From NCBI GenBank assembly GCA_022496205.1, contig WTXD01000160.1, positions 1-23,726 of the forward strand: 23,726 bases of DNA. The letters run 5' to 3'. The notes under the pieces were generated by a model that had not been told where the DNA came from, made no database searches, and saw only the letters and a program-made list of their open reading frames with translations. Positions 4,148 through 21,149 of this stretch are shown in pieces. Both the position numbers and the translations under genes were made by a program. Origin of the DNA: Gloeopeniophorella convolvens. Lineage: Eukaryota > Basidiomycota > Agaricomycetes > Russulales. Position 1 is the stretch's first letter. Every line of letters starts with the position of its first letter.

Positions 4148-4335
4148 TGTTAAGTTCTGTAACTCCCTCAGTCAAAGTATAAAGGAAACAACTGTATTTT
4201 CATCACCTGTAACTCTACAAACGTTGTCAGAACACAAAACAGACCAAATAACAAGGCGCGGCTTACCCCTCAGTCAAAGTATAAAGGAAACGACTGAGGG
4301 AACGCAAACGAATGCCGAACATCTAATCTATCAAA
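4148..4335 (-). repeat. 5' LTR of element C, promoter-proximal/R-U5 part
   Basis: Supported inner part of the LTR. Predicted start of transcription at A4295 in CCCTCAGTC. Exon 1 is 4295-4267, the intron-like segment 4266-4215 (GTAAGC...TTTGTAG, with CTGAC as possible branch site), and exon 2 4214-4207 (AGTTACAG). After a 13-nt GT-starting gap (4206-4194), the leader recurs as 4193-4157 with the 52 nt missing and one mismatch. U5 is only 9 nt and ends at 4148. The outer LTR boundary is unresolved; plus-strand ACA ends at 4689 or 4787 are possibilities without support. Confidence 0.7.
4215..4266 (-). other. Intron-like 52-nt segment in the leader of element C
   Basis: Begins GTAAGC, ends TTTGTAG, with TTCTGAC about 12 nt before the end, matching a fungal intron. 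The joined flanks (GACTGAGGG + AGTTACAG) occur contiguously 50 nt downstream at 4173-4157, which fixes both boundaries. Confidence 0.7.
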
Positions 4336-5533: not shown

Positions 5534-5795
5534 GCTTCTGTTGAGACGGACAGTGTCCTGGCAGCTCTGATTAGATTAGATATGGACCTAATGATCAAGG
5601 ACTATCTTATCTTATGTACATAATGTTCTAGACTTAAGGCTGTGCTCAGCCCCACATTCGTTTCTGTGTTCCGGACTCTTCTAGGGCATTCCGTGACCCA
5701 CCTTGTACTCCGGTACCCACTCTTACTCCGTTTCATGTGGGTCTCTTAGGCTTTCTAAGCAGTGTTTATCACATGCTATCTGTCGCTCCTTACAG

Positions 5796-5831
5796 TATAT
5801 AAGGACTCCTTTCTTCGCCTTTGTAGCCTCA
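5796..5831 (+). promoter_or_regulatory. LTR promoter: TATA box and initiator
   Basis: TATATAAG at 5796-5803, followed 35 nt downstream by CCTCAGTC, an initiator-like sequence with A5831 as predicted first base. The downstream duplicated leader begins at the base corresponding to A5831, independently supporting this start site. Confidence 0.65.
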
Positions 5832-5987
5832 GTCTTTTGACCTTCCTTGACTGAGGCAAGTACACTTACGCTCCTTTCTACTTTCTTATACTTACACTAC
5901 CTTACAGCGTCACTCTGTGTCCTTCAGGTATTGTTGTAATCAAGTCTTTTGACCTTCCTTGACTGAGCGTCACTCTGTGTCCTTCAG
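5831..5987 (+). repeat. Leader present twice: unspliced-like, then spliced-like copy
   Basis: Copy 1: exon A 5831-5855, intron-like 5856-5907, exon B 5908-5927. Gap 5928-5942 begins GT. Copy 2: 5943-5987, equal to A joined directly to B, with 45 of 45 bases identical. Confidence 0.85.
5856..5907 (+). other. Intron-like 52-nt segment (GC-AG) in the solo LTR leader
   Basis: Starts GCAAGT after GAG and ends CCTTACAG. GCAAGT is the usual form of the rare GC-AG intron donor. The exact junction GAG|CGTCACTC is found contiguously in the downstream leader copy, defining both ends. Confidence 0.65.
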
Positions 5988-6023
5988 TTGTCACTTCACC
6001 CTTTGCTGCGCTTCAACAGCTTC

Positions 6024-7495: not shown

Positions 7496-8150
7496 TGTCA
7501 GGACTCACTCGCAGGGTGCGCGCAGAGAGGATAGCAGAGGGTTTGGAGAGCGTCACAGGGGGGGAACAGAAGATGAGCTGCGAGTATTGCAGATACGAGG
7601 GGGAACACACTAACAGTGCTATTGCAGTGCTAGGTACAGATGAGAGTGCCACAGATGGACAGTCTGAGGACCACTGGGCGATACATGGGGGTCTTATATA
7701 CTACTGGAGACCCCCCAGACAAATCTGGTCTAATTACTGATGGGGATTCCAGAGGGGATTCCCCATAACCTCTCCTCTCCGATACACTTCTTAGATTCCA
7801 TCGCAGAGTGGGGCTTGAGGCCCCATGGAGTTCTTGATGATCAGAGTCCCAAAGAGGACGCATGAAGTGTTTCACCTTGATCAAGGTTCTGGTTACTTTG
7901 GGACGAGTAATATGGCCATTCTGAGAGATCCCTAGTCCGGGATCTTGGGGGTATTCCAGGGTTAATTGGCCATTAGGGAGTAGGGCGAGGAATGGGGGTG
8001 AAGGGTCACGTGATGCATTTCGACTTGTAGTCGCAATGTGAGTGGTACGCGTCGCATTGTGAGCGACGCGTAGGGTATTTACTGGTAGGGCTGGATTCGC
8101 TTTAGTGTTCTGAGCAGTTCGACCTCCTTGAGGCCCTAGTGTTTGTGACA
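7496..8150 (-). mobile_element. Solo Ty3/gypsy LTR of the same family as element G
   Basis: 655 bp with termini TGTCA...TGACA. It aligns without gaps to the 655-bp LTR of element G at 20495-21149, with 11 differences by eye, all transitions (about 98.3% identity). Flanks are GCACG (7491-7495) and GCACA (8151-8155), a 5-bp target duplication with one G/A difference. No gypsy coding sequence adjoins it, so it is a solo LTR. Strand follows element G, whose pol is on the minus strand. A 174-codon frame on the minus strand (8154-7630) is the portion of Pol that reads into the LTR in G. Confidence 0.88.
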
Positions 8151-12144: not shown

Positions 12145-12158
12145 GGTTATGGGCCCTG
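12145..12158 (+). other. Primer-binding site of element A
   Basis: GGTTATGGGCCCTG directly after the LTR, complementary to the anticodon arm of initiator tRNA-Met; identical to the sites of elements B and C. Confidence 0.85.
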
Positions 12159-12216
12159 GGCCTAAGCATTAGTACGAAGTCACACCGTCATTCAAAGAGC
12201 TTACCGAATTATCATC

Positions 12217-13461
12217 ATGGGCGACGACGCGAGGATCTCCATCCCCAGACTCAACGTCGATGGGACCAACTGGCCCAACTACCGTGACCGCCTGTCATGG
12301 GCACTCACCTCGAAGGGCCTTCAAGACCATCTGACGCACGCTACGGTCTCTCCGGCATACATCGCGGCCGGCACGATCAACAGTCTCGACGAGAACGCAC
12401 GTTGGACTGCCGGCGAGGGTACAGTCAAGCAGTACATCGCCATGTCCGTGCCCGACTCGATCTTTAACCGTATCAAGGTCAAGACGACTGCGAGGGAAGT
12501 ATGGGAGGAGATGAAGAGTGTTTTTGAGGGACGCTCGAGGATGGTACTGGTGGATCTGAAGAGGAAGCTTCAGAATGCACGTTGCGGAGAAAACGACAAC
12601 GTACGCACTCATTTCATGAAACTCGCTGACCTTCGGGAGCAGCTTGCTGCCGGAGGCATCACCATCACCGACGATGACTTCACCGACACCCTACTCGGCT
12701 CGTTGCCCGAGTCCTATGAGCCCACCATCGCCGGCGTAACCGCGAGCGCGAAAATCATTGCGCGACCTATGATGGCAAACGAAGTTATCGGACTCATCAC
12801 CGATGACTACGACCGACGCACCTTACGCCAACTCCAGCAGACGGACGACACCAAGGACGAAGCTTTCGTCACGGCGGACGACCGCAAGCGCAAAGACAAG
12901 CGCACAGTCGAGTGCTTCAATTGCAAGCGCAAAGGGCACTACAAATCGGAGTGCTGGGCGAAGGGCGGAGGGAAGGAAGGACAGGGGCCCGAGCGTACGC
13001 AGAGGAAGCCCCGCGACCGAGCTAACAAAGCCGCAGAACCAGATAACGAAGTCGAGGCGTGGGCCGCCATCGACGAAGAGACCGGTCAGCGTTGCGCTGA
13101 AGTAATGCGCGGGAACGCACCGGAAGCCGAACTCTACGACTCGGGCGCATCGCGCCACATGTCCCCTTTCCGCCACTTGTTCACCACCTTCCAGTCCATC
13201 CCTTCTCGTCCCATCATCGCGGCTGACAACCGCACGTTCTATGCCACTGGAGTTGGTGACTTGCACATCAAAGTTCCGAATGGCGCGACTTTGACACCGG
13301 TCGTGCTCCGAGATGCGTTGTATGCTCCTGAGATGGGACTTACCATCGTGTCTATCAGTCGCATCGCCAAAGCAGGTCATCAAGTCAGTTTCAAAGACGA
13401 CACCTGCATGATCCAGAACAAGTCAGGACGCACTGTCGGACGCATCCCAGCCGCGCCGAAC
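12217..13461 (+). pseudogene. gag-pol: Gag-protease part of element A Gag-Pol, interrupted by element B
   Basis: Starts at ATG 12217 (MGDDARISIPRLNVDGTNW), 59 nt after the primer-binding site. Residues about 1-210 are the UBN2-type copia Gag core. CCHC zinc knuckle CFNCKRKGHYKSEC is near residues 233-246. The aspartic protease begins at ELYDSGASRHMSP near residue 308. The open frame runs to residue 415 (IPAAPN), where element B is inserted; the few codons after it are LTR sequence ending at a stop at 13473. There are no other stops or frame breaks, so this half of A is intact apart from the insertion. Confidence 0.92.
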
Positions 13462-13462
13462 G
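13458..13462 (+). repeat. Target-site duplication of element B, left copy
   Basis: GAACG immediately before TGTTGGAATG. The identical GAACG is at 19017-19021, after the right LTR. Confidence 0.95.
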
Positions 13463-13735
13463 TGTTGGAATGAATCTCGTATGTCCTTATTCATTTACTA
13501 TACGCTTCATATTCTATGCGTGCGCGTGCGGACAAACGCGCGCGAGTCCTTTTACCTTCGTACTTTCTGTGCCGGTGGCCCGGGCCGGGCCCCGGCGATT
13601 CGTTTCGCGCTAAGTCGTGCGCGTTGTCTATGCCCGCAAGGGCTTGCACATTTGCTTCCGGGTGGCTTGAATTTTGGTACTGTACAGCAGTGGCTGAGCC
13701 TGTTGATAACCGACTGTTCGAGCACCAGCCACCTC

Positions 13736-13910
13736 AGTTCTCGCCTTACCAGCGCGCGAGTATACTGAGGTGAGCATACTTTAGTTAGTTTGATTGCCAA
13801 ACCTGTACTTAACTGCCTCAGCGGTGCTTCCGTTTCGTACAGGTGAATAAACAATAGTTCTCGCCTTACCAGCGCGCGAGTATACTGAGCGGCGCTTCCG
13901 TTTCGTACAG
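13736..13910 (+). repeat. Leader present twice in the element B LTR
   Basis: 13736-13769 (34 nt) and 13822-13842 (21 nt) recur fused as 13856-13910; exon A copies are identical and exon B copies differ at one position. The right LTR has the same arrangement at 18787-18961, there with no mismatch between the copies. Confidence 0.9.
13770..13821 (+). other. Intron-like 52-nt segment in the 5' LTR of B
   Basis: Starts GTGAGC after ACTGAG and ends CTGCCTCAG, with CTTAAC as possible branch site. The joined flanks ACTGAG|CGG(C/T)GCTTCC occur contiguously downstream at 13884-13899. Confidence 0.7.
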
Positions 13911-13965
13911 AATCGCTTCGCGCGCTTTCGAGAACCACCCGATACCCGGGCTATTTATTTCTACA

Positions 13966-13979
13966 GGTTATGGGCCCTG
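13966..13979 (+). other. Primer-binding site of element B
   Basis: GGTTATGGGCCCTG directly after the LTR; complementary to the initiator tRNA-Met anticodon arm, as in elements A and C. Confidence 0.87.
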
Positions 13980-14027: not shown

Positions 14028-16616
14028 ATGGCTACTTCCTCTACGACTTCTTCCCTCGCCCCCACGTCCCTCGTGGAGGCACTTCCCTCTTCCATCCCTC
14101 GTCTTGAGCCCAATGGTTCGAACTGGGCCATCTTCTCTATGCGTTTCCGGGACACCATGATGGTGAACCGGCGTTGGGGCTACTTCACTGGGTCGATCTC
14201 GCGACCCGAGCCCAAGGACCCGAAGAAGCCGACAGCAGATGAGCTGAAAGAGATGGAGGACTGGGACTACGAGAACATAGTCGCACGACACCTGCTCACG
14301 CAATGTCTCCCCGACACGACGGCAGTACGGCTCGCCGCCGTGGAGACCGCGAAGGAGCGCTGGGAGATAGTCAGCTGGACGTTCAAGGCGAAGAGTGCGT
14401 ACGCACAGAACGACCTCGAGAATGCTTTCTTCGAAATGCGTTGCCCGCGGAACGGCGATGTTCGGGCATTTCTTGCAGACCTACGGGTCAAGCGCGAGGA
14501 GCTCGCTGCCGCCGGCGTCAGTGTCGAGGACAAGGACTACCAACGCACCGTCCTCCGTGGCATTCCCGAAGACCTGGCCCGTTTTGCGTCGCAGCTCCTA
14601 GCGGCGTACCGTATTGCAGACCCCGACAAATCCCTTTCCACCGAAATCCTTATCGACCACATCTCTGAGGAGGCCGATCACATGCGCAACCGGCGCGGCG
14701 CGGATAGCTCCAAGTCGAAGAAGGAGGCCAACGACGAGGCGTTGGCTGTCGGCTCGGATGGGAAGAAGAAGAAAGCCAAGCGCAAGGGCAACTGCCACAA
14801 CTGCGGCAAGGCTGGTCACTGGGCACGCGAGTGCCGCCAACCTAAACAAGACAAAAACAAAGATTCAGCACCAGCGCAGAAGCAGGAGAACAAACCCGCA
14901 GATTCGGCGAACGTCGCTGCCGATCCGTACGACGACGAGATGGACGGCACGTGGATCAGCGCCGAGCTGGAAGGCACATCGGAGGTCATGGACTACTTGG
15001 GAGATTTGAGGACGCTGGCGATCGAGCCGGTGCGCGCAGAGGACATCGCGGAGTTGCCTCTGCCTATCTACCCATCGTGGGGCGCGCGTCAGCGCGCTGC
15101 GGCTGAGCTGGAAGATCGCCTAGCCGAGCAGGAGAACGGACCTGCGCCTGAGATGATGGCCGCGGACGAATCTACTTACGTTGAGCTGTACGACTCTGGT
15201 GCAACACGACACATCTCCCTGTACCGCGACGCGTTCATTTCCTACCGCAAGCTCTCCCCGCCCAAGTTGCTCAGCACAGCCAACTCGCAACGGTTCGAGG
15301 CCGTCGGCATTGGCAGCATGGACGTCACCGTACCGAACGGCGACACCTCCCACACCTCCATCCGTCTCACAGACGTCCTGTACGTGCCGACCGCTGGGTG
15401 CACGCTCGTGTCACTGGGTGCTCTGGACCGCCTAGGCTACCGCGCCGCGATTGGTGGCGGCAAGCTCGAGATCTTCGCACCAACAGGGGGCAAGGTCGCA
15501 TCCATCCCGAAGACGTCGCGCGGACTATACAGAGTCACGCGCGAACCAGACTCAGCAAACACTGTCGAAACCGTGTCAGTCATGGAGCTGCACCGGCGCA
15601 TGGGGCACATCTCGCCCGAGGCCGCGCGCAGGCTCATCACTCAAGGCCATATCAAGGGCCTCGCGGTAGATCCTAAGTGCATGATTACGGACTGTGACGC
15701 ATGCATTTTCGCGCGCGCAACCGAGAAACAAGTTCCTAAAGTCCGCATCAGCCCGCGCGCGGAACACTTCGGCGACGAGGTCCACACTGACCTGTGGGGC
15801 CCCGCGAAGGTCGCTACCTTGAATGGCCGCACCTACCTCATCACCTTCACCGACGACGCCACGCGCTTCTCCATCATCTACCTGCTCCGGCGCAAGTCGG
15901 AAGCCCTGAAGGCGTACAAGTCGTTCGAGGCCTGGGCCACGACCCAAGGCCACTGCGCCGCGATCAAAGTCCTGCGTTCCGACCGCAGCAGCGAGTACCT
16001 CAGCGATGAATTCGATCAGCACCTCGCATCCGCTGATACCGTGCGACGACTCACCACTCATGACTCGCCGCAACTGAACGGCGTGGCCGAACGCCTCAAT
16101 CGGACGCTCCTCGAGAAGGTGCGGGCCATGCTGCACAGCACGGGCCTGCCGGCGTCGTTTTGGGGCGAAGCCATACGGCACGCGACGTGGTTGAAAAACC
16201 GCACGTCGACGCGTGCACTGGGCGGGAAGACGCCGTGGGAGGCGCTGTTCGGCAGCAAGCCCGACCTGTCGAGGCTGCGGGCGTGGGGCTGCAAGGTGTG
16301 GGTGCACAACGCATCCGGGGGCAAGCTGGCGCCCCGAGCGCGCGAGGCGCGCTGGCTCGGATTCGATATAACGGCGCACGCGCACCGTGTCTTCGTGCCA
16401 GGCGGCGGTGTATCTGTCGAGCGCAACGTCTATTTCAGCTCCATGGCTCCGCTCGAGGGGGAGCAGCAAACCACGTACCTGCGTGTTGGTGCGAGCGAGC
16501 AGACCGCTGAGCAAGCGCCCGCGCCCTCGGCTTCTCACAAGGCAACCCCCACGTCACCCGCGTCAACCGTCGACGCTCCCACGACGCCTGAACGAGCGCC
16601 CGAACACGCGCCTTAG
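14028..16616 (+). CDS. gag-pol: Gag-protease-integrase of element B (ends at in-frame TAG)
   Basis: ATG 14028 lies in CCATGG, 48 nt after the primer-binding site. Gag core (IPRLEPNGSNWAIFSMRF) occupies about residues 20-230. A lysine-rich run precedes the CCHC knuckle CHNCGKAGHWAREC near 255-270. Protease motif VELYDSGATRHIS is near 388. GAG-pre-integrase LHRRMGH...CDAC is at about 518-570. Integrase has DDE residues in VHTDLWGP, LRSDRSSEY and NGVAERLN (about 586-690). The usual DRGGEY reads DRSSEY, explicable by two G-to-A changes. The TAG at 16614-16616 sits in the Pro/Ala-rich linker; the same frame then continues through RT, so this is the front of one Gag-Pol. Confidence 0.93.
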   Translation: MATSSTTSSLAPTSLVEALPSSIPRLEPNGSNWAIFSMRFRDTMMVNRRWGYFTGSISRPEPKDPKKPTADELKEMEDWDYENIVARHLLTQCLPDTTAVRLAAVETAKERWEIVSWTFKAKSAYAQNDLENAFFEMRCPRNGDVRAFLADLRVKREELAAAGVSVEDKDYQRTVLRGIPEDLARFASQLLAAYRIADPDKSLSTEILIDHISEEADHMRNRRGADSSKSKKEANDEALAVGSDGKKKKAKRKGNCHNCGKAGHWARECRQPKQDKNKDSAPAQKQENKPADSANVAADPYDDEMDGTWISAELEGTSEVMDYLGDLRTLAIEPVRAEDIAELPLPIYPSWGARQRAAAELEDRLAEQENGPAPEMMAADESTYVELYDSGATRHISLYRDAFISYRKLSPPKLLSTANSQRFEAVGIGSMDVTVPNGDTSHTSIRLTDVLYVPTAGCTLVSLGALDRLGYRAAIGGGKLEIFAPTGGKVASIPKTSRGLYRVTREPDSANTVETVSVMELHRRMGHISPEAARRLITQGHIKGLAVDPKCMITDCDACIFARATEKQVPKVRISPRAEHFGDEVHTDLWGPAKVATLNGRTYLITFTDDATRFSIIYLLRRKSEALKAYKSFEAWATTQGHCAAIKVLRSDRSSEYLSDEFDQHLASADTVRRLTTHDSPQLNGVAERLNRTLLEKVRAMLHSTGLPASFWGEAIRHATWLKNRTSTRALGGKTPWEALFGSKPDLSRLRAWGCKVWVHNASGGKLAPRAREARWLGFDITAHAHRVFVPGGGVSVERNVYFSSMAPLEGEQQTTYLRVGASEQTAEQAPAPSASHKATPTSPASTVDAPTTPERAPEHAP

Positions 16617-18506
16617 GACGCACCACTTCCCGACGCGCGCGAAAGCGCTGCCCCGCCCCCAACGACCGCCGAACCCGCGGCGATACCAGAACGACCCGCG
16701 CGGATTCGCAAGCCATCACGCATCGTGCGCGACCTGCAATCCGGCGCCGGTGTCTCGACTTTACGCCGCTCCGAGCGCATCGCTCGCGGTATCCAACTAC
16801 CTGGAGGGTTTGGAGATGGGGATGAGGAGGAGGCAGGGGGAGCATGGGCAGTGGAGGAAGGCTTACCGGTCCTCAGGGAGGATTGGGACGGTATGGAGCA
16901 CACGTTCGCCGCCGAGACCGCTGACGCCGAGGCACTCGAACCGCGCACGCTCGCGGAGGCGAAGCGCCGCCCGGACTGGAACCTCTGGGAGGGTGCCATT
17001 CTTGAGGAGCTCACCAACCTCAAGAAGCAGGGCACCTGGCGTCTGGAGCACGCGTCGCCGGGCACGAACATCATCGGCTCCAAGTGGGTCTTCAAGGCCA
17101 AGAAGGACGCCGCCGGAAACGTCGTACGCTACAAGGCGCGCCTCGTCGCCAAAGGCTTCAGCCAGATCGACGGCGTGGACTACGACGACACCTACGCGCC
17201 CGTCGCAAAACTCGCGTCCTCGCGCGCAGTAATCGCCCTGTCGAACCGTCTCAAACTGGAGATTCACCAGATCGACATCAAGGGTGCGTACCTCAACGGC
17301 GAGCTGAACGACGACGAGGTGCTGTACATGCAGCATCCTCCGGGCTACAAGCCAAGCGACGCCGGCGCGCGCGTTCTGCGCCTCATCAAAACCCTCTACG
17401 GGCTGCGTCAGTCTGGACGCCGGTGGTACCAGAAACTGCGCTGGATCTTTGAGAAGCTGGGCTTCAAGGCCTCCGCCTCAGATCAGGCAGTGTTCTACAG
17501 GATGGTGAAGGGGCCGTGCAGCGAGCTGACGATTGTTGTGGTGCACGTCATGACTGCACGATCGCAGTGAGCTCACTAAAGCTTATCGAAGATCTCAAAC
17601 GGGGCTCCGGCAGTACGTCGAAGTCACAGATCTGGGCGAGCTCCACTGGCTCCTCGGGATCGAGATCAAACGCGACCGCGCCGGCGGCACCATTCATTTA
17701 TCCCAACGCGCCTACATGACTCCATCCTCCGCCGCTTCCACTTTGATGAGCTCAAACCCGTGTCCACGCCCATGGACGTCCAAGTCCGCCTCACCACCGA
17801 ACTCGCACCGGCCGACGCTTCCGAGTTTGCCGCCATGCGCGACGTGCCTTATCGTGAGGCCGTCGGCGCACTGAACTGGGCGGCGCTCGCTACGCGTCCG
17901 GACATTGCGTTCGCGGTCTCAACCGTGGCGCGCTTCTCGTCGAACCCAGGTCCGGCGCACTGGAATGCCGTAAAACGCATCTTCAGATACCTCAAGGGTA
18001 CGCGCGACCTGTGGCTTTCGTACGGCGAGACCAAGCGGTCGTTGACGGGCTTCGCGGATGCTGACGGGAGCATGGCCGAGGATCGCCGCGCGATCTCGGG
18101 CTATGCATTCTTGATCGACGGCGGCGCTGTCTCGTGGTCATCTAAGCGGCAGGAGATCATCTCGCTGTCCACCACCGAGAGCGAATACGTCGCGGCGACG
18201 CACGGCACCAAGGAGGCGCTCTGGCTTCGCAGCCTTATCGCAGAACTCTTCGGCCCCTTTGATGCAGCTACCACCCTCTTCTCTGACAACCAATCCGCCA
18301 TCGCCCTGACTCGCGACGGCCAGTACCACGCGCGGACGAAGCACATCGACATCCGCTTCCACTTCATCCGCTGGGTCGTCGAGGAGGGCAAGGTCAAGCT
18401 GGTCTACTGCCCCACTGCCGACATGGTCGCCGACGCGCTCACAAAAGCCTTGCCTTCGCCGAAGGTCAAGCACTTCGTGCAGGAGCTCGGACTCCGCGCG
18501 GTTTGA
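16617..18506 (+). pseudogene. pol: Reverse transcriptase-RNase H of element B (three one-base deletions)
   Basis: Continues the 14028 frame after the TAG. RT motifs SKWVFKAKKDAAGNVVRYK, QIDIKGAYLNGEL and TLYGLRQSGRRWY are clear (17080-17430). At 17549/17550 a base is missing inside the catalytic VDD box (HVDDCTIAV). Further single bases are missing at about 17601-17605 and at 17717/17718; the three together restore the original frame from about 17718. RNase H follows: TGFADADGS, SSKRQEIISLSTTESEY, FSDNQSAIALT and VADALTKALPS, ending at TGA 18504-18506, directly against the polypurine tract. With the catalytic box shifted, no functional RT can be made from this copy. Confidence 0.92.
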
Positions 18507-18513: not shown

Positions 18514-19016
18514 TGTTGGAATGAATCTCGTATGTCCTTATTCATTTACTATACGCTTCATATTCTATGCGCGCGCGTACGGACAAACGCGCGCGAGTCC
18601 TTTTACCTTCGTACTTTCTGTGCCGGTGGCCCGGGCCGGGCCCCGGCGATTCGTTTCGCGCTAAGTCGTGCGCGTTGTCTATGCCCGCAAGGGCTTGCAC
18701 ATTTGCTTCCGGGTGGCTTGAATTTTGGTACTGTACAGCAGTGGCTGAGCCTGTTGATAACCGACTGTTCGAGCACCAGCCACCTCAGTTCTCGCCTTAC
18801 CAGCGCGCGAGTATACTGAGGTGAGCATACTTTAGTTAGTTTGATTGCCAAACCTGTACTTAACTGCCTCAGCGGCGCTTCCGTTTCGTACAGGTGAATA
18901 AACAATAGTTCTCGCCTTACCAGCGCGCGAGTATACTGAGCGGCGCTTCCGTTTCGTACAGAATCGCTTCGTGCGCTTTCGAGAACCACCCGATACCCGG
19001 GCTATTTATTTCTACA
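18514..19016 (+). repeat. 3' LTR of element B
   Basis: 503 bp, about 99.2% identical to 13463-13965 (four transitions, no indels). Confidence 0.96.
18821..18872 (+). other. Intron-like 52-nt segment in the 3' LTR of B
   Basis: Identical to 13770-13821. Its retention in both LTRs shows that the 3' LTR template was not spliced in the last transposition cycle. Confidence 0.68.
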
Positions 19017-19021
19017 GAACG
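19017..19021 (+). repeat. Target-site duplication of element B, right copy
   Basis: GAACG immediately after the right LTR end TTTCTACA; matches 13458-13462. Confidence 0.95.
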
Positions 19022-20494
19022 GACTGTACAAAGTCGACCACGGTGACGTCGCCATCTCGGCTGCGGCGGAACCGATTCATCTCGCTGAGCTCCACCGTCG
19101 TCTCGGCCACATTCCCCTTCCAGCCATCCGATCTTTTATTGACCTCGGATTAATTAAAGATCTTGTCGTGATCGACAATCTGACATCGATCGACTGCGAT
19201 TCGTGCGAGTACGCGAAGTCGACTCGCAAGACGATTCGCAAGGAGCGCGCCGAGCCACGCGCAGCTCATTTCGGCGACGAAGTTCACACCGACGTCTGGG
19301 GACCTTCACCGACTGATTCCCTTGGCCACAGTCGCTACTATGTGGCATTCACTGACGACTACTCACGTTTCACACGCATCTACCTCCTCCGCACCAAAGA
19401 TGAAGCTTTTGGCGCATACAAGACGTTTTCCGCGTGGGCCAAGACGCAGCATGCCGCGCGGATCAAGATTCTCCACTCAGATCGTGGAGGAGAGTACCTC
19501 AGCGATGAGTTCACGATGTTTCTGAACTCCGAGGGTACCGAGCGTCGACTGACTACGCATGACACCCCGCAGCATAACGGTGTCGCAGAGTCTTTAAACC
19601 GTCGACTTCTCGAGCGCGTTCGCGCGATCTTGCATCACTCTGGCCTGCCTAAGTTCCTCTGGGGCGAGGCTATTCACCACGCGGTCTGGTTGAAGAACCG
19701 CGCGCCCACTCGTGTCTTAGGCAACGTCACACCTTACGAAAAACTTTACAAGTCTAAGCCTGACTTGTCCGACGTTCCGGAGTGGGGCCAAGCAGTATGG
19801 GTCCACACGTCCAAGAACGACAAGCTGAGCGCGCGTGCAGTTGAGGGGCGTTGGGTTGGATTTGATCAGGAGAGTACGCATGCTCATCGCATTTATTGGG
19901 CTGCTACTCGCAAAATTTCCGTAGAGCGCGACGTCAAATTTCGTCGTACCTACATCACTCTTCCTGCACCATCCTATCCGACTACCACTGTCCAACCCGC
20001 AGTGCCAGCTACATTGGCGCCGCCTCCAGCACCACCTCCTGTGCCGCCTCCTGCATCTGGCGCATCAGCGCCAGTTCCTACACCTTCCTCCTCGACCAAG
20101 CAGTCAGCATCAGCACCGGCAGTTCCGCCGGAGCAAGTACCACTCCCGCCCGATCTTCCCGACAAGGCACAGCCTACGCTGCGCCGATCGTCACGTCTCA
20201 CAAAGCCATCCGACTACCAGAAGCGTCTCCAGGCCGGCGAAGGCACCACGGAGGGCATGCACCCACTGGCAAGGCTCTTGGACCACTCATTCCAGCCGGA
20301 ATGCCCCGTCAGGGGGAGTCCGCGTCTATCATTGACGCAGCATCATTTGCAGACCCCTCAGACGTCGACTACGCGCTCGCCAGCGCGGTCGATTACCTCG
20401 ACGACGATCCAAAGACGCTCTCGCAGGCTAAGTCGCACGCCGACTGGCCGAGCTGGAAGAGTGCTATGGATAAGGAGATGAAAACATTGACTGA
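19022..20494 (+). pseudogene. pol: Integrase part of element A Gag-Pol, resumed after element B and cut by G
   Basis: Resumes in the frame of 12217-13461 with LYKVDHGDV. GAG-pre-integrase (LHRRLGH...CDSC) is at about 19090-19210. Integrase core has DDE residues in VHTDVWGP, HSDRGGEY and NGVAESLN. The proline-rich linker runs from about 19970 to 20210. A one-base frame break near 20245-20255 moves the reading to another frame, where TLSQAKSHADWPSWKSAMDKE, the usual start of copia RT, is seen at about 20415-20480. The LTR of element G begins at 20495, so RT catalysis is lost. The GTG at 19168 is an internal codon, not a start. Confidence 0.9.
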
Positions 20495-21149
20495 TGTCAG
20501 GACTCACTCGCGGAGTGCGCGCAGAGAGGATAGCAGAGGGTTTGGAGAGCGTCACAAGGGGGGAACAGAAGATGAGCTGCGAGTATTGCAGATACGAGGG
20601 GGAACACACTAACAGTGCTATTGCAGTGCTAGGTACAGATGAGAGTGCCACAGATGGACAGTCTGAGGACCACTGGGTGATACATGGGGGTCTTATATAC
20701 TACTGGAGACCCCCCAGACAAATCTGGTCTAATTACTGATGGGGATTCCAGAGGGGATTCCCCATAACCTCTCCTCTCTGATACGCTTCTTAGATTCCAT
20801 CGCAGAGTGGGGCTTGAGGCCCCATGGAGTTCTTGATGATCAGAGTCCCAAAGAGGACGCATGAAGTGTTTCACCTTGATCAAGGTTCTGGTTACTTTGG
20901 GACGAGTAATATGGCCATTCTGAGAGATCCCTAGTCCGGGATCTTGGGGGTATTCCAGGGTTAATTGGCCATTAGGGAGTAGGGCGAGGAATGGGGGTGA
21001 AGGGTTACGTGATGCATTTCGACTTGTAGTCGCAATGTGAGTGGTACGCGTCGCATTGTGAGCGACGCGTAGGGTATTTACTGGTAGGGCTGGATTTGCT
21101 CTAGTGTTCTGAGCAGTTCGACCTCCTTGAGGCCTTAGTGTTCGTGACA
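20495..21149 (-). repeat. 3' LTR of chromovirus G
   Basis: TGTCA...TGACA, 655 bp, gap-free match to the solo LTR 7496-8150 (11 transitions). On the minus strand it starts at 21149, directly after the polypurine tract. Confidence 0.93.

Follow-up and report, generated by a model that had tools for sequence, protein, structure and literature searches.

An LTR design in copia elements of the fungus Gloeopeniophorella convolvens that appears to keep its introns by storing a pre-spliced copy of its leader

Retrotransposition is classically recognised by the introns that disappear when a sequence passes through RNA. A splice donor is present in R of HTLV and foamy viruses, and the introns of the retrotransposons Ogre and EVADE lie outside the LTR. 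In Ogre and in EVADE, a copia element of Arabidopsis, the introns serve subgenomic RNAs (PMC12786077, accessible part). Penelope-like elements retain introns through transposition, which has been explained by an unconventional, possibly antisense, template; the accessible part of the same paper makes no mention of a pre-spliced second copy (PMC3846280). Among Ty1/copia elements, half-tRNA priming has been described for Drosophila copia and anticodon-loop cleavage for Ty5 (PMC5371799, accessible part). Here we describe LTRs that seem to preserve their introns because they also hold a pre-spliced copy, which would be used as a landing site.

The window, i.e. the whole stretch of DNA analysed, comprises positions 1 to 23,726 of contig WTXD01000160.1 (C69 in our numbering) of the 36.7-Mb assembly GCA_022496205.1 of G. 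convolvens. It contains an element, termed B, with two LTRs of 503 nt each, both TG...CA, which were delimited by repeat search and sequence (5' LTR 13463..13965 and 3' LTR 18514..19016, forward strand) and are flanked by the 5-bp target-site duplication GAACG (13458-13462 and 19017-19021). The coding region (14028..17570, forward strand) consists of separate ORFs for copia-type gag, integrase and RVT_2 reverse transcriptase; Pfam searches with ORFs 14028-16616 and 16725-17570 matched Retrotran_gag_2, gag_pre-integrs (just below its cut-off), rve and RVT_2. By this domain order of gag, integrase and RVT_2, element B is a Ty1/copia LTR retrotransposon. The same scan of element B returned RVT_2 and rve and no match to GIY-YIG, the domain looked for as a sign of a Penelope-type element. 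In a further element, termed C, the scan covered just gag and integrase domains and matched both, gag under the cut-off. Directly after the 5' LTR of element B lies the primer-binding site GGTTATGGGCCCTG (13966..13979, forward strand), which, by its position and motif, is putatively of the half-initiator-tRNA type. A tRNA scan of six loci found none.

An earlier note on this DNA had claimed that the LTRs of elements B and C and a solo LTR carry their leader twice, first split and then fused, and recomputed coordinates and identities agree with it throughout. In the 5' LTR of element B (all positions on the forward strand), segment A (13736..13769), the putative first exon, starts at the initiator-like CCTC/AGT (the slash marks the start of A) and is identical to its second copy, A'. 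It is followed by intron 1, or i1 (13770..13821; 52 nt, GTGAGC...CTCAG), which is missing from the fused copy, and by B (13822..13842), a putative exon of 21 nt that is 20/21 identical to B' and precedes GTGAAT. The following 68 nt (13843..13910, GT...AG) form the putative intron 2, or i2, made up of the spacer s that separates the copies (GTGAATAAACAAT, 13843..13855) and the fused A'B' (13856..13910; A' 13856-13889, B' 13890-13910), the candidate landing site of strong-stop cDNA. U5, taken here as everything between B' and the LTR terminus, occupies 13911..13965. AB and A'B' are identical at 54/55 positions in this LTR and at 55/55 in the 3' LTR (A 18787-18820, i1 18821-18872, B 18873-18893, s 18894-18906, A' 18907-18940, B' 18941-18961, U5 18962-19016, forward strand). 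The solo LTR, a member of family F1 (5539..6018, forward strand), is flanked by the duplication GCTTC at 5534-5538 and 6019-6023 and contains A 5831-5855, i1 5856-5907 (GC-AG), B 5908-5927, s 5928-5942, A' 5943-5967, B' 5968-5987 and U5 5988-6018, with AB and A'B' identical at 45/45 positions. In the element C LTR, which lies on the reverse strand (A to LTR end, 4148..4295), the order is A 4295-4267, i1 4266-4215, an 8-nt B 4214-4207, s 4206-4194, A' 4193-4165, B' 4164-4157 and U5 4156-4148, followed by the primer site at 4147-4134; 36/37 positions are identical. As to the continuity of R in these LTRs, A'B' is uninterrupted, and A, the putative start, is split from B by i1.

The split-then-fused LTR structure is real and genome-wide. 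Using as query the primer site shared by B and C plus the last LTR bases, ACAGGTTATGGGCCC, we found 73 occurrences in the assembly and retrieved the upstream regions of all of them. The LTR has the form A-intron1-B-s-A'B'-U5 at 54 sites (50 from the scan, L036, L042 and L069 added by mismatch-tolerant alignment, and L005, which is cut at its 5' side). At 14 sites it is collapsed to U3-AB-U5, with a single fused AB right after U3 (L011, L015, L017, L024, L026, L029, L033, L034, L041, L052, L054, L061, L067 and L071), and five loci show neither form (L025, L050, L065, L066 and L068). A score of 30 was reached at 50/73 primer-site loci, versus 0/700 dinucleotide-preserving shuffles of seven such LTRs, where the maximum was 20. 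A stricter scan (A score of at least 15, B score of at least 8) found the structure at 50/73 loci in the forward direction and at one (L038) in reversed strings. The laxer scan gave 15/73 matches in reversed strings, because a long A match and a chance short B match together met its threshold. At 11 primer sites without a preceding ACA (10 loci and window position 12145) the structure was absent, the maximum score being 15. Pattern counts for the two largest families, F1 and F2, gave 257 intron-bearing and 42 collapsed LTRs. No relatives were found in viral contigs. L065, L066 and L068 belong to another LTR family, which shares the primer site and the ACA end but not the split leader.

Other repeats are also present in the window. 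Element B has inserted into a second copia-type element (12145-13462 and 19022-20481), which has a gag ORF at 12217-13473, integrase within 19168-20481 and a primer site at 12145, and whose LTR has neither the ACA end nor the intron architecture. A direct repeat of 655 bp (7496-8150 and 20495-21149), whose two copies are separated by 13 kb and share 98% identity, possibly marks the termini of an element that received the copia insertions; an ORF with a chromodomain overlaps its right copy.

The two leader copies evolve in concert. In an alignment of 66 LTRs, 26 of 3074 positions distinguish AB from A'B', and 48 of these LTRs have no difference at all; the alignment omits L025 (an unrelated repeat), L092 (an extra unit), L036 (decayed, junction misplaced) and loci without the structure. 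At F1 sites 16, 17, 32 and 33, which vary among LTRs, both copies within each LTR carry the same base; in family FB this is true of site 13 and, for one LTR, of site 39. At F1 site 26 one LTR shows the mirrored state and another does not. The same difference between A and A' is found in two LTRs each at F1 site 27 and F2 site 4, and such shared unmirrored differences count against the replication cycle proposed below; they could represent a lag of one generation, because in the parent the source of A would be the 3' LTR and that of A' the 5' LTR. The description of A+B as completely different between families was too strong, as AB is 46-96% identical between family representatives. A frozen duplication is excluded by the mirrored subfamily variants together with this divergence, since AB is alike within LTRs and yet so variable between families. 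Aligning AB with A'B' across genomic copies, the check that the earlier note had called for, showed the two copies evolving together, and the few differences and mirrored variants favour its proposal that each replication cycle writes the fused copy anew, with spliced leader RNA as the source.

That i1 is removed can be read from the fused copy, whose DNA implies it. This intron is 49-54 nt long, with AG as acceptor in 66/66 LTRs and GC (45), GT (20) or AC (1) as donor. In F1 and F2 intron 1 (e.g. L006; window 5856-5907) the GC donor reads GCAAGT. Splicing of i1 alone would produce the leader A-B-s-A'-B'-U5, and the LTR would therefore gain one unit per cycle; the cycle closes only if i2 is also removed, because A-B-U5 then equals the order of A'-B'-U5. 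The segment s-A'-B' (49-80 nt) looks like this second intron, with B' and its AG as the acceptor. GT directly follows the first B in 65/66 LTRs (in L038 after a one-base shift) and the second B in 0/66, the first B ends in AG in 65/66, and the predicted i2 has GT and AG ends in 65/66 LTRs each; s-A'-B' thus has the form of an intron. A ends in ACTGAG or ACTGAGGG in 66/66 LTRs, and, judging by motif, the corresponding end of A' may be the branch-point region. The i2 donors, among them GTATTG and GTGAAT, have a weak +5 position, which counts against the cycle. In F1 and F2, the pattern of the s-A' junction gave 274 matches, at least one of them unrelated, and fused A-B-s gave none at the stringency of the pattern. 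The junction expected from exon skipping was rejected, its one match in F1 and F2 being an unrelated sequence. In these two families, among RNAs that leave copies, i2 seems always to be removed at the 5' end and i1 never at the 3' end.

We consider it likely that R is split in the DNA and would be restored by splicing, and that pairing with A'B' would keep both introns in each cycle. Support in the DNA comes from the architecture, the concerted evolution, the placement of GT and AG, the variant copies and the hypervariable base before A'; from these we infer that transcripts begin at A, that both introns are spliced out, that the 3' copy is spared and that the cDNA lands as proposed. Transcription would start at A, and the 5' leader A-i1-B-i2-U5 would shed i1 and i2 to give A-B-U5, which would be copied by reverse transcription from the primer site into minus strong-stop cDNA. 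The RNA 3' end would keep its introns as U3-A-i1-B-s-A'-B', and the AB end of the cDNA would pair with A'B' (37-55 nt unbroken) in the 3' LTR. Synthesis would then continue through s, B, i1, A and U3, so that the product would again be U3-A-i1-B-s-AB-U5, with A'B' overwritten by the spliced AB of the parent. Overwriting in every cycle would explain the concerted evolution, and the introns would survive because the 3' LTR supplies them; if the cDNA paired with A instead (22-34 nt), an intronless U3-AB-U5 would result. The earlier note had proposed that cDNA made on spliced leader RNA is transferred to the 3' end of genomic RNA. Rewriting from the spliced leader is retained here, but splicing of i1 alone, as envisaged there, would not regenerate the LTR. 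With somewhat less assurance, we suggest that the spliceosome would be an obligatory part of replication: double splicing of the leader would make R, the 3' copy would escape, and A'B' would be remade and never inherited. Candidate reasons why the cap-proximal copy would be spliced and the 3' copy spared are cap-proximal enhancement of splicing and poly(A) cleavage before the B' acceptor, although the latter alone would not spare i1. The spacer of element B contains AATAAA, and removal of a 5' poly(A) signal is thus one possible benefit of the intron.

An alternative that we regard as unlikely, and which survives better than the others, is that only i1 is spliced and that reverse transcriptase slips between AB and A'B' during strong-stop synthesis, deleting s-A'-B' unspliced. 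Reverse transcriptases are well known to switch template between direct repeats, and at 37-55 nt AB and A'B' form a nearly identical pair. However, slippage leaves the GT after the first B (65/66 LTRs) unexplained, and it should often fail and yield A-B-s-A'B', of which there is no case in F1 and F2 among the 274 junction matches.

The base immediately before A' is exceptionally variable. Junction bases were counted from 100 of the 274 matches, setting aside one unrelated match and one odd-length junction each of F1 and F1b. Among the matches listed, this base is A in 16, C in 14, T in 8 and G in 1 of 39 equal-length F1 junctions, where every other variable-spacer position has at most one exception; it is A in 23, C in 13 and T in 13 of 49 F2 junctions, where some other positions vary too. 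Mapped onto the U3 tree of 22 F1 LTRs, it changed at least 11 times, versus a mean of 0.31 and a maximum of 6 for 289 U3 columns; for 17 F2 LTRs at least 5 changes were needed, versus a mean of 0.14 and a maximum of 3 for 332 columns. The base before A is C in 21/22 F1 and 17/17 F2 LTRs. LTR pairs 5-9 kb apart, matched by eye among the matches listed, agree in the base before A' in all six cases (C18, C24, C36, C76, C124 and C157); the LTRs on C145, which lie 10.4 kb apart and differ, were not counted as a pair. A simple reading is that this base would be an untemplated addition by reverse transcriptase at the RNA 5' end, and Ty1 cDNA ends are reportedly untidy. Collapsed copies have C before A in 41/42 cases, which speaks against an untidy cDNA end, since it should show there, unless promoter function selects C. 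By eye, A begins at CCTC/AG or close variants in family representatives; a TATA-like box is located about 35 nt upstream of A in F1 and F2, and the other families shown have none at that spacing.

These data also bear on a reading to which we give very little credence, namely that the spliced leader stems from a single ancient insertion, that transcription now starts at A' with A-i1-B as ordinary U3, and that DNA gene conversion equalises the copies. Short tandem repeats can convert each other, but here two short tracts would have been converted and the intervening 49-54 nt spared in all families. Conversion also fails to account for the hypervariability of the very base that precedes A' and for the conservation of GT after B, and the TATA-like box of F1 and F2 is spaced for A, not A'.

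Intronless copies arose repeatedly. On the U3 tree of 33 F1 LTRs, which is poorly resolved (20 of 28 inner branches open), the full or collapsed state requires at least 8 changes, 3 of them forced by well-supported branches. One collapsed and one full F1 copy have an identical U3, and the collapsed form occurs in other families as well (L011, L067 and L071). Collapse after insertion was tested for 9 of the 14 collapsed 5' LTRs (leaving out L011, L015, L024, L034 and L054). In six elements (C43, C342, C373, C123, C401 and C397) both LTRs are collapsed and the 5-bp target duplications match, so that collapse preceded or accompanied insertion, and DNA recombination after insertion is rejected for these six. 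C183 and C268 combine a collapsed 5' LTR and unmatched flanks with a full LTR some 5.5-6 kb downstream, and thus may be chimeras rather than single insertions; collapse of one LTR alone is possible in these two and counts against the cycle. C146 has a collapsed 5' LTR and no partner LTR within the 2 kb examined.

Other variants are rarer. Three F1 copies have a single-copy A-i1-B-U5, as expected from splicing of i2 alone or from recombination between B and B'. Two old, diverged LTRs of the form A-intron-B-U5, without a fused copy (L095, C369:36335-36775, and L106, C223:1055570-1055870), may represent the ancestral state that preceded this design or a product of decay. L092 reads U3-A-i1-B-s-A-B-s-A-U5, lacking B' and having an extra unspliced unit, and its last A meets U5 exactly at the predicted i2 acceptor. 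Loss of this acceptor would leave s-A in the leader and add a unit, which matches the observed order; the junction of A with U5 may also have arisen by deletion at a 2-nt repeat. In L015, L024 and L054, A is joined to an internal point of U3, and in L089 A' has a double start, with the start of A' lying inside A'; these four are what misplaced cDNA ends would be expected to leave. F2-like junctions also occur as inverted pairs 450 bp apart in at least five places among the matches listed (C6:3028/3478, C28:28260/28710, C76:1575/2025, C83:6476/6926 and C97:2473/2923), as though a compound repeat had been built from parts of two LTRs. The four misjoined loci look like products of a step that would also build the architecture in the first place and may be its origin, i.e. 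end-to-end joining of cDNA from an i1-less leader to the 3' end of genomic RNA after s, without A'B' pairing, but as the regular step this is highly improbable, since RNA 3' ends would have to fall precisely behind s and s-A'-B' would still have to be removed from the leader. Under the proposed cycle, the idea in the earlier note that cDNA lands on or is joined to the RNA end gives way to ordinary pairing of the repeats AB and A'B', and would be needed for these rare misjoins only.

Like the earlier note, which knew of no such LTR, we found no description of an intron within an LTR or of a pre-spliced copy in literature titles and abstract openings, a coverage that leaves most subscription journals outside. 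The word "intron" is absent from the accessible part of PMC5445492, and a phrase match in that of PMC5542766 was unrelated. The novelty of this apparently intron-keeping LTR design is provisional.

If the proposed cycle is true, splicing sits inside the strand-transfer step, and introns persist through reverse transcription without limit. How a single RNA comes to be spliced in its 5' LTR while the identical 3' LTR escapes would then be a question open to experiment. The base before A' would be a visible record of the behaviour of reverse transcriptase at a capped RNA end. For LTR annotation and dating, these segments should be handled separately.

Several known systems share individual features with these elements. 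HTLV and foamy viruses likewise have a splice site in the LTR, but no complete intron is known within it and the genomic RNA is unspliced. Penelope-like elements share the retention of introns and differ in enzyme class. Ogre and EVADE are, similarly, LTR elements that use introns, whereas theirs lie outside the LTR and are described as serving subgenomic RNAs. Ty1/copia elements such as Drosophila copia and Ty5 share copia-type gag, integrase and RVT_2 and a primer site right after the LTR; in their standard scheme R is unbroken at both RNA ends, whereas here it would be split by introns in the DNA.
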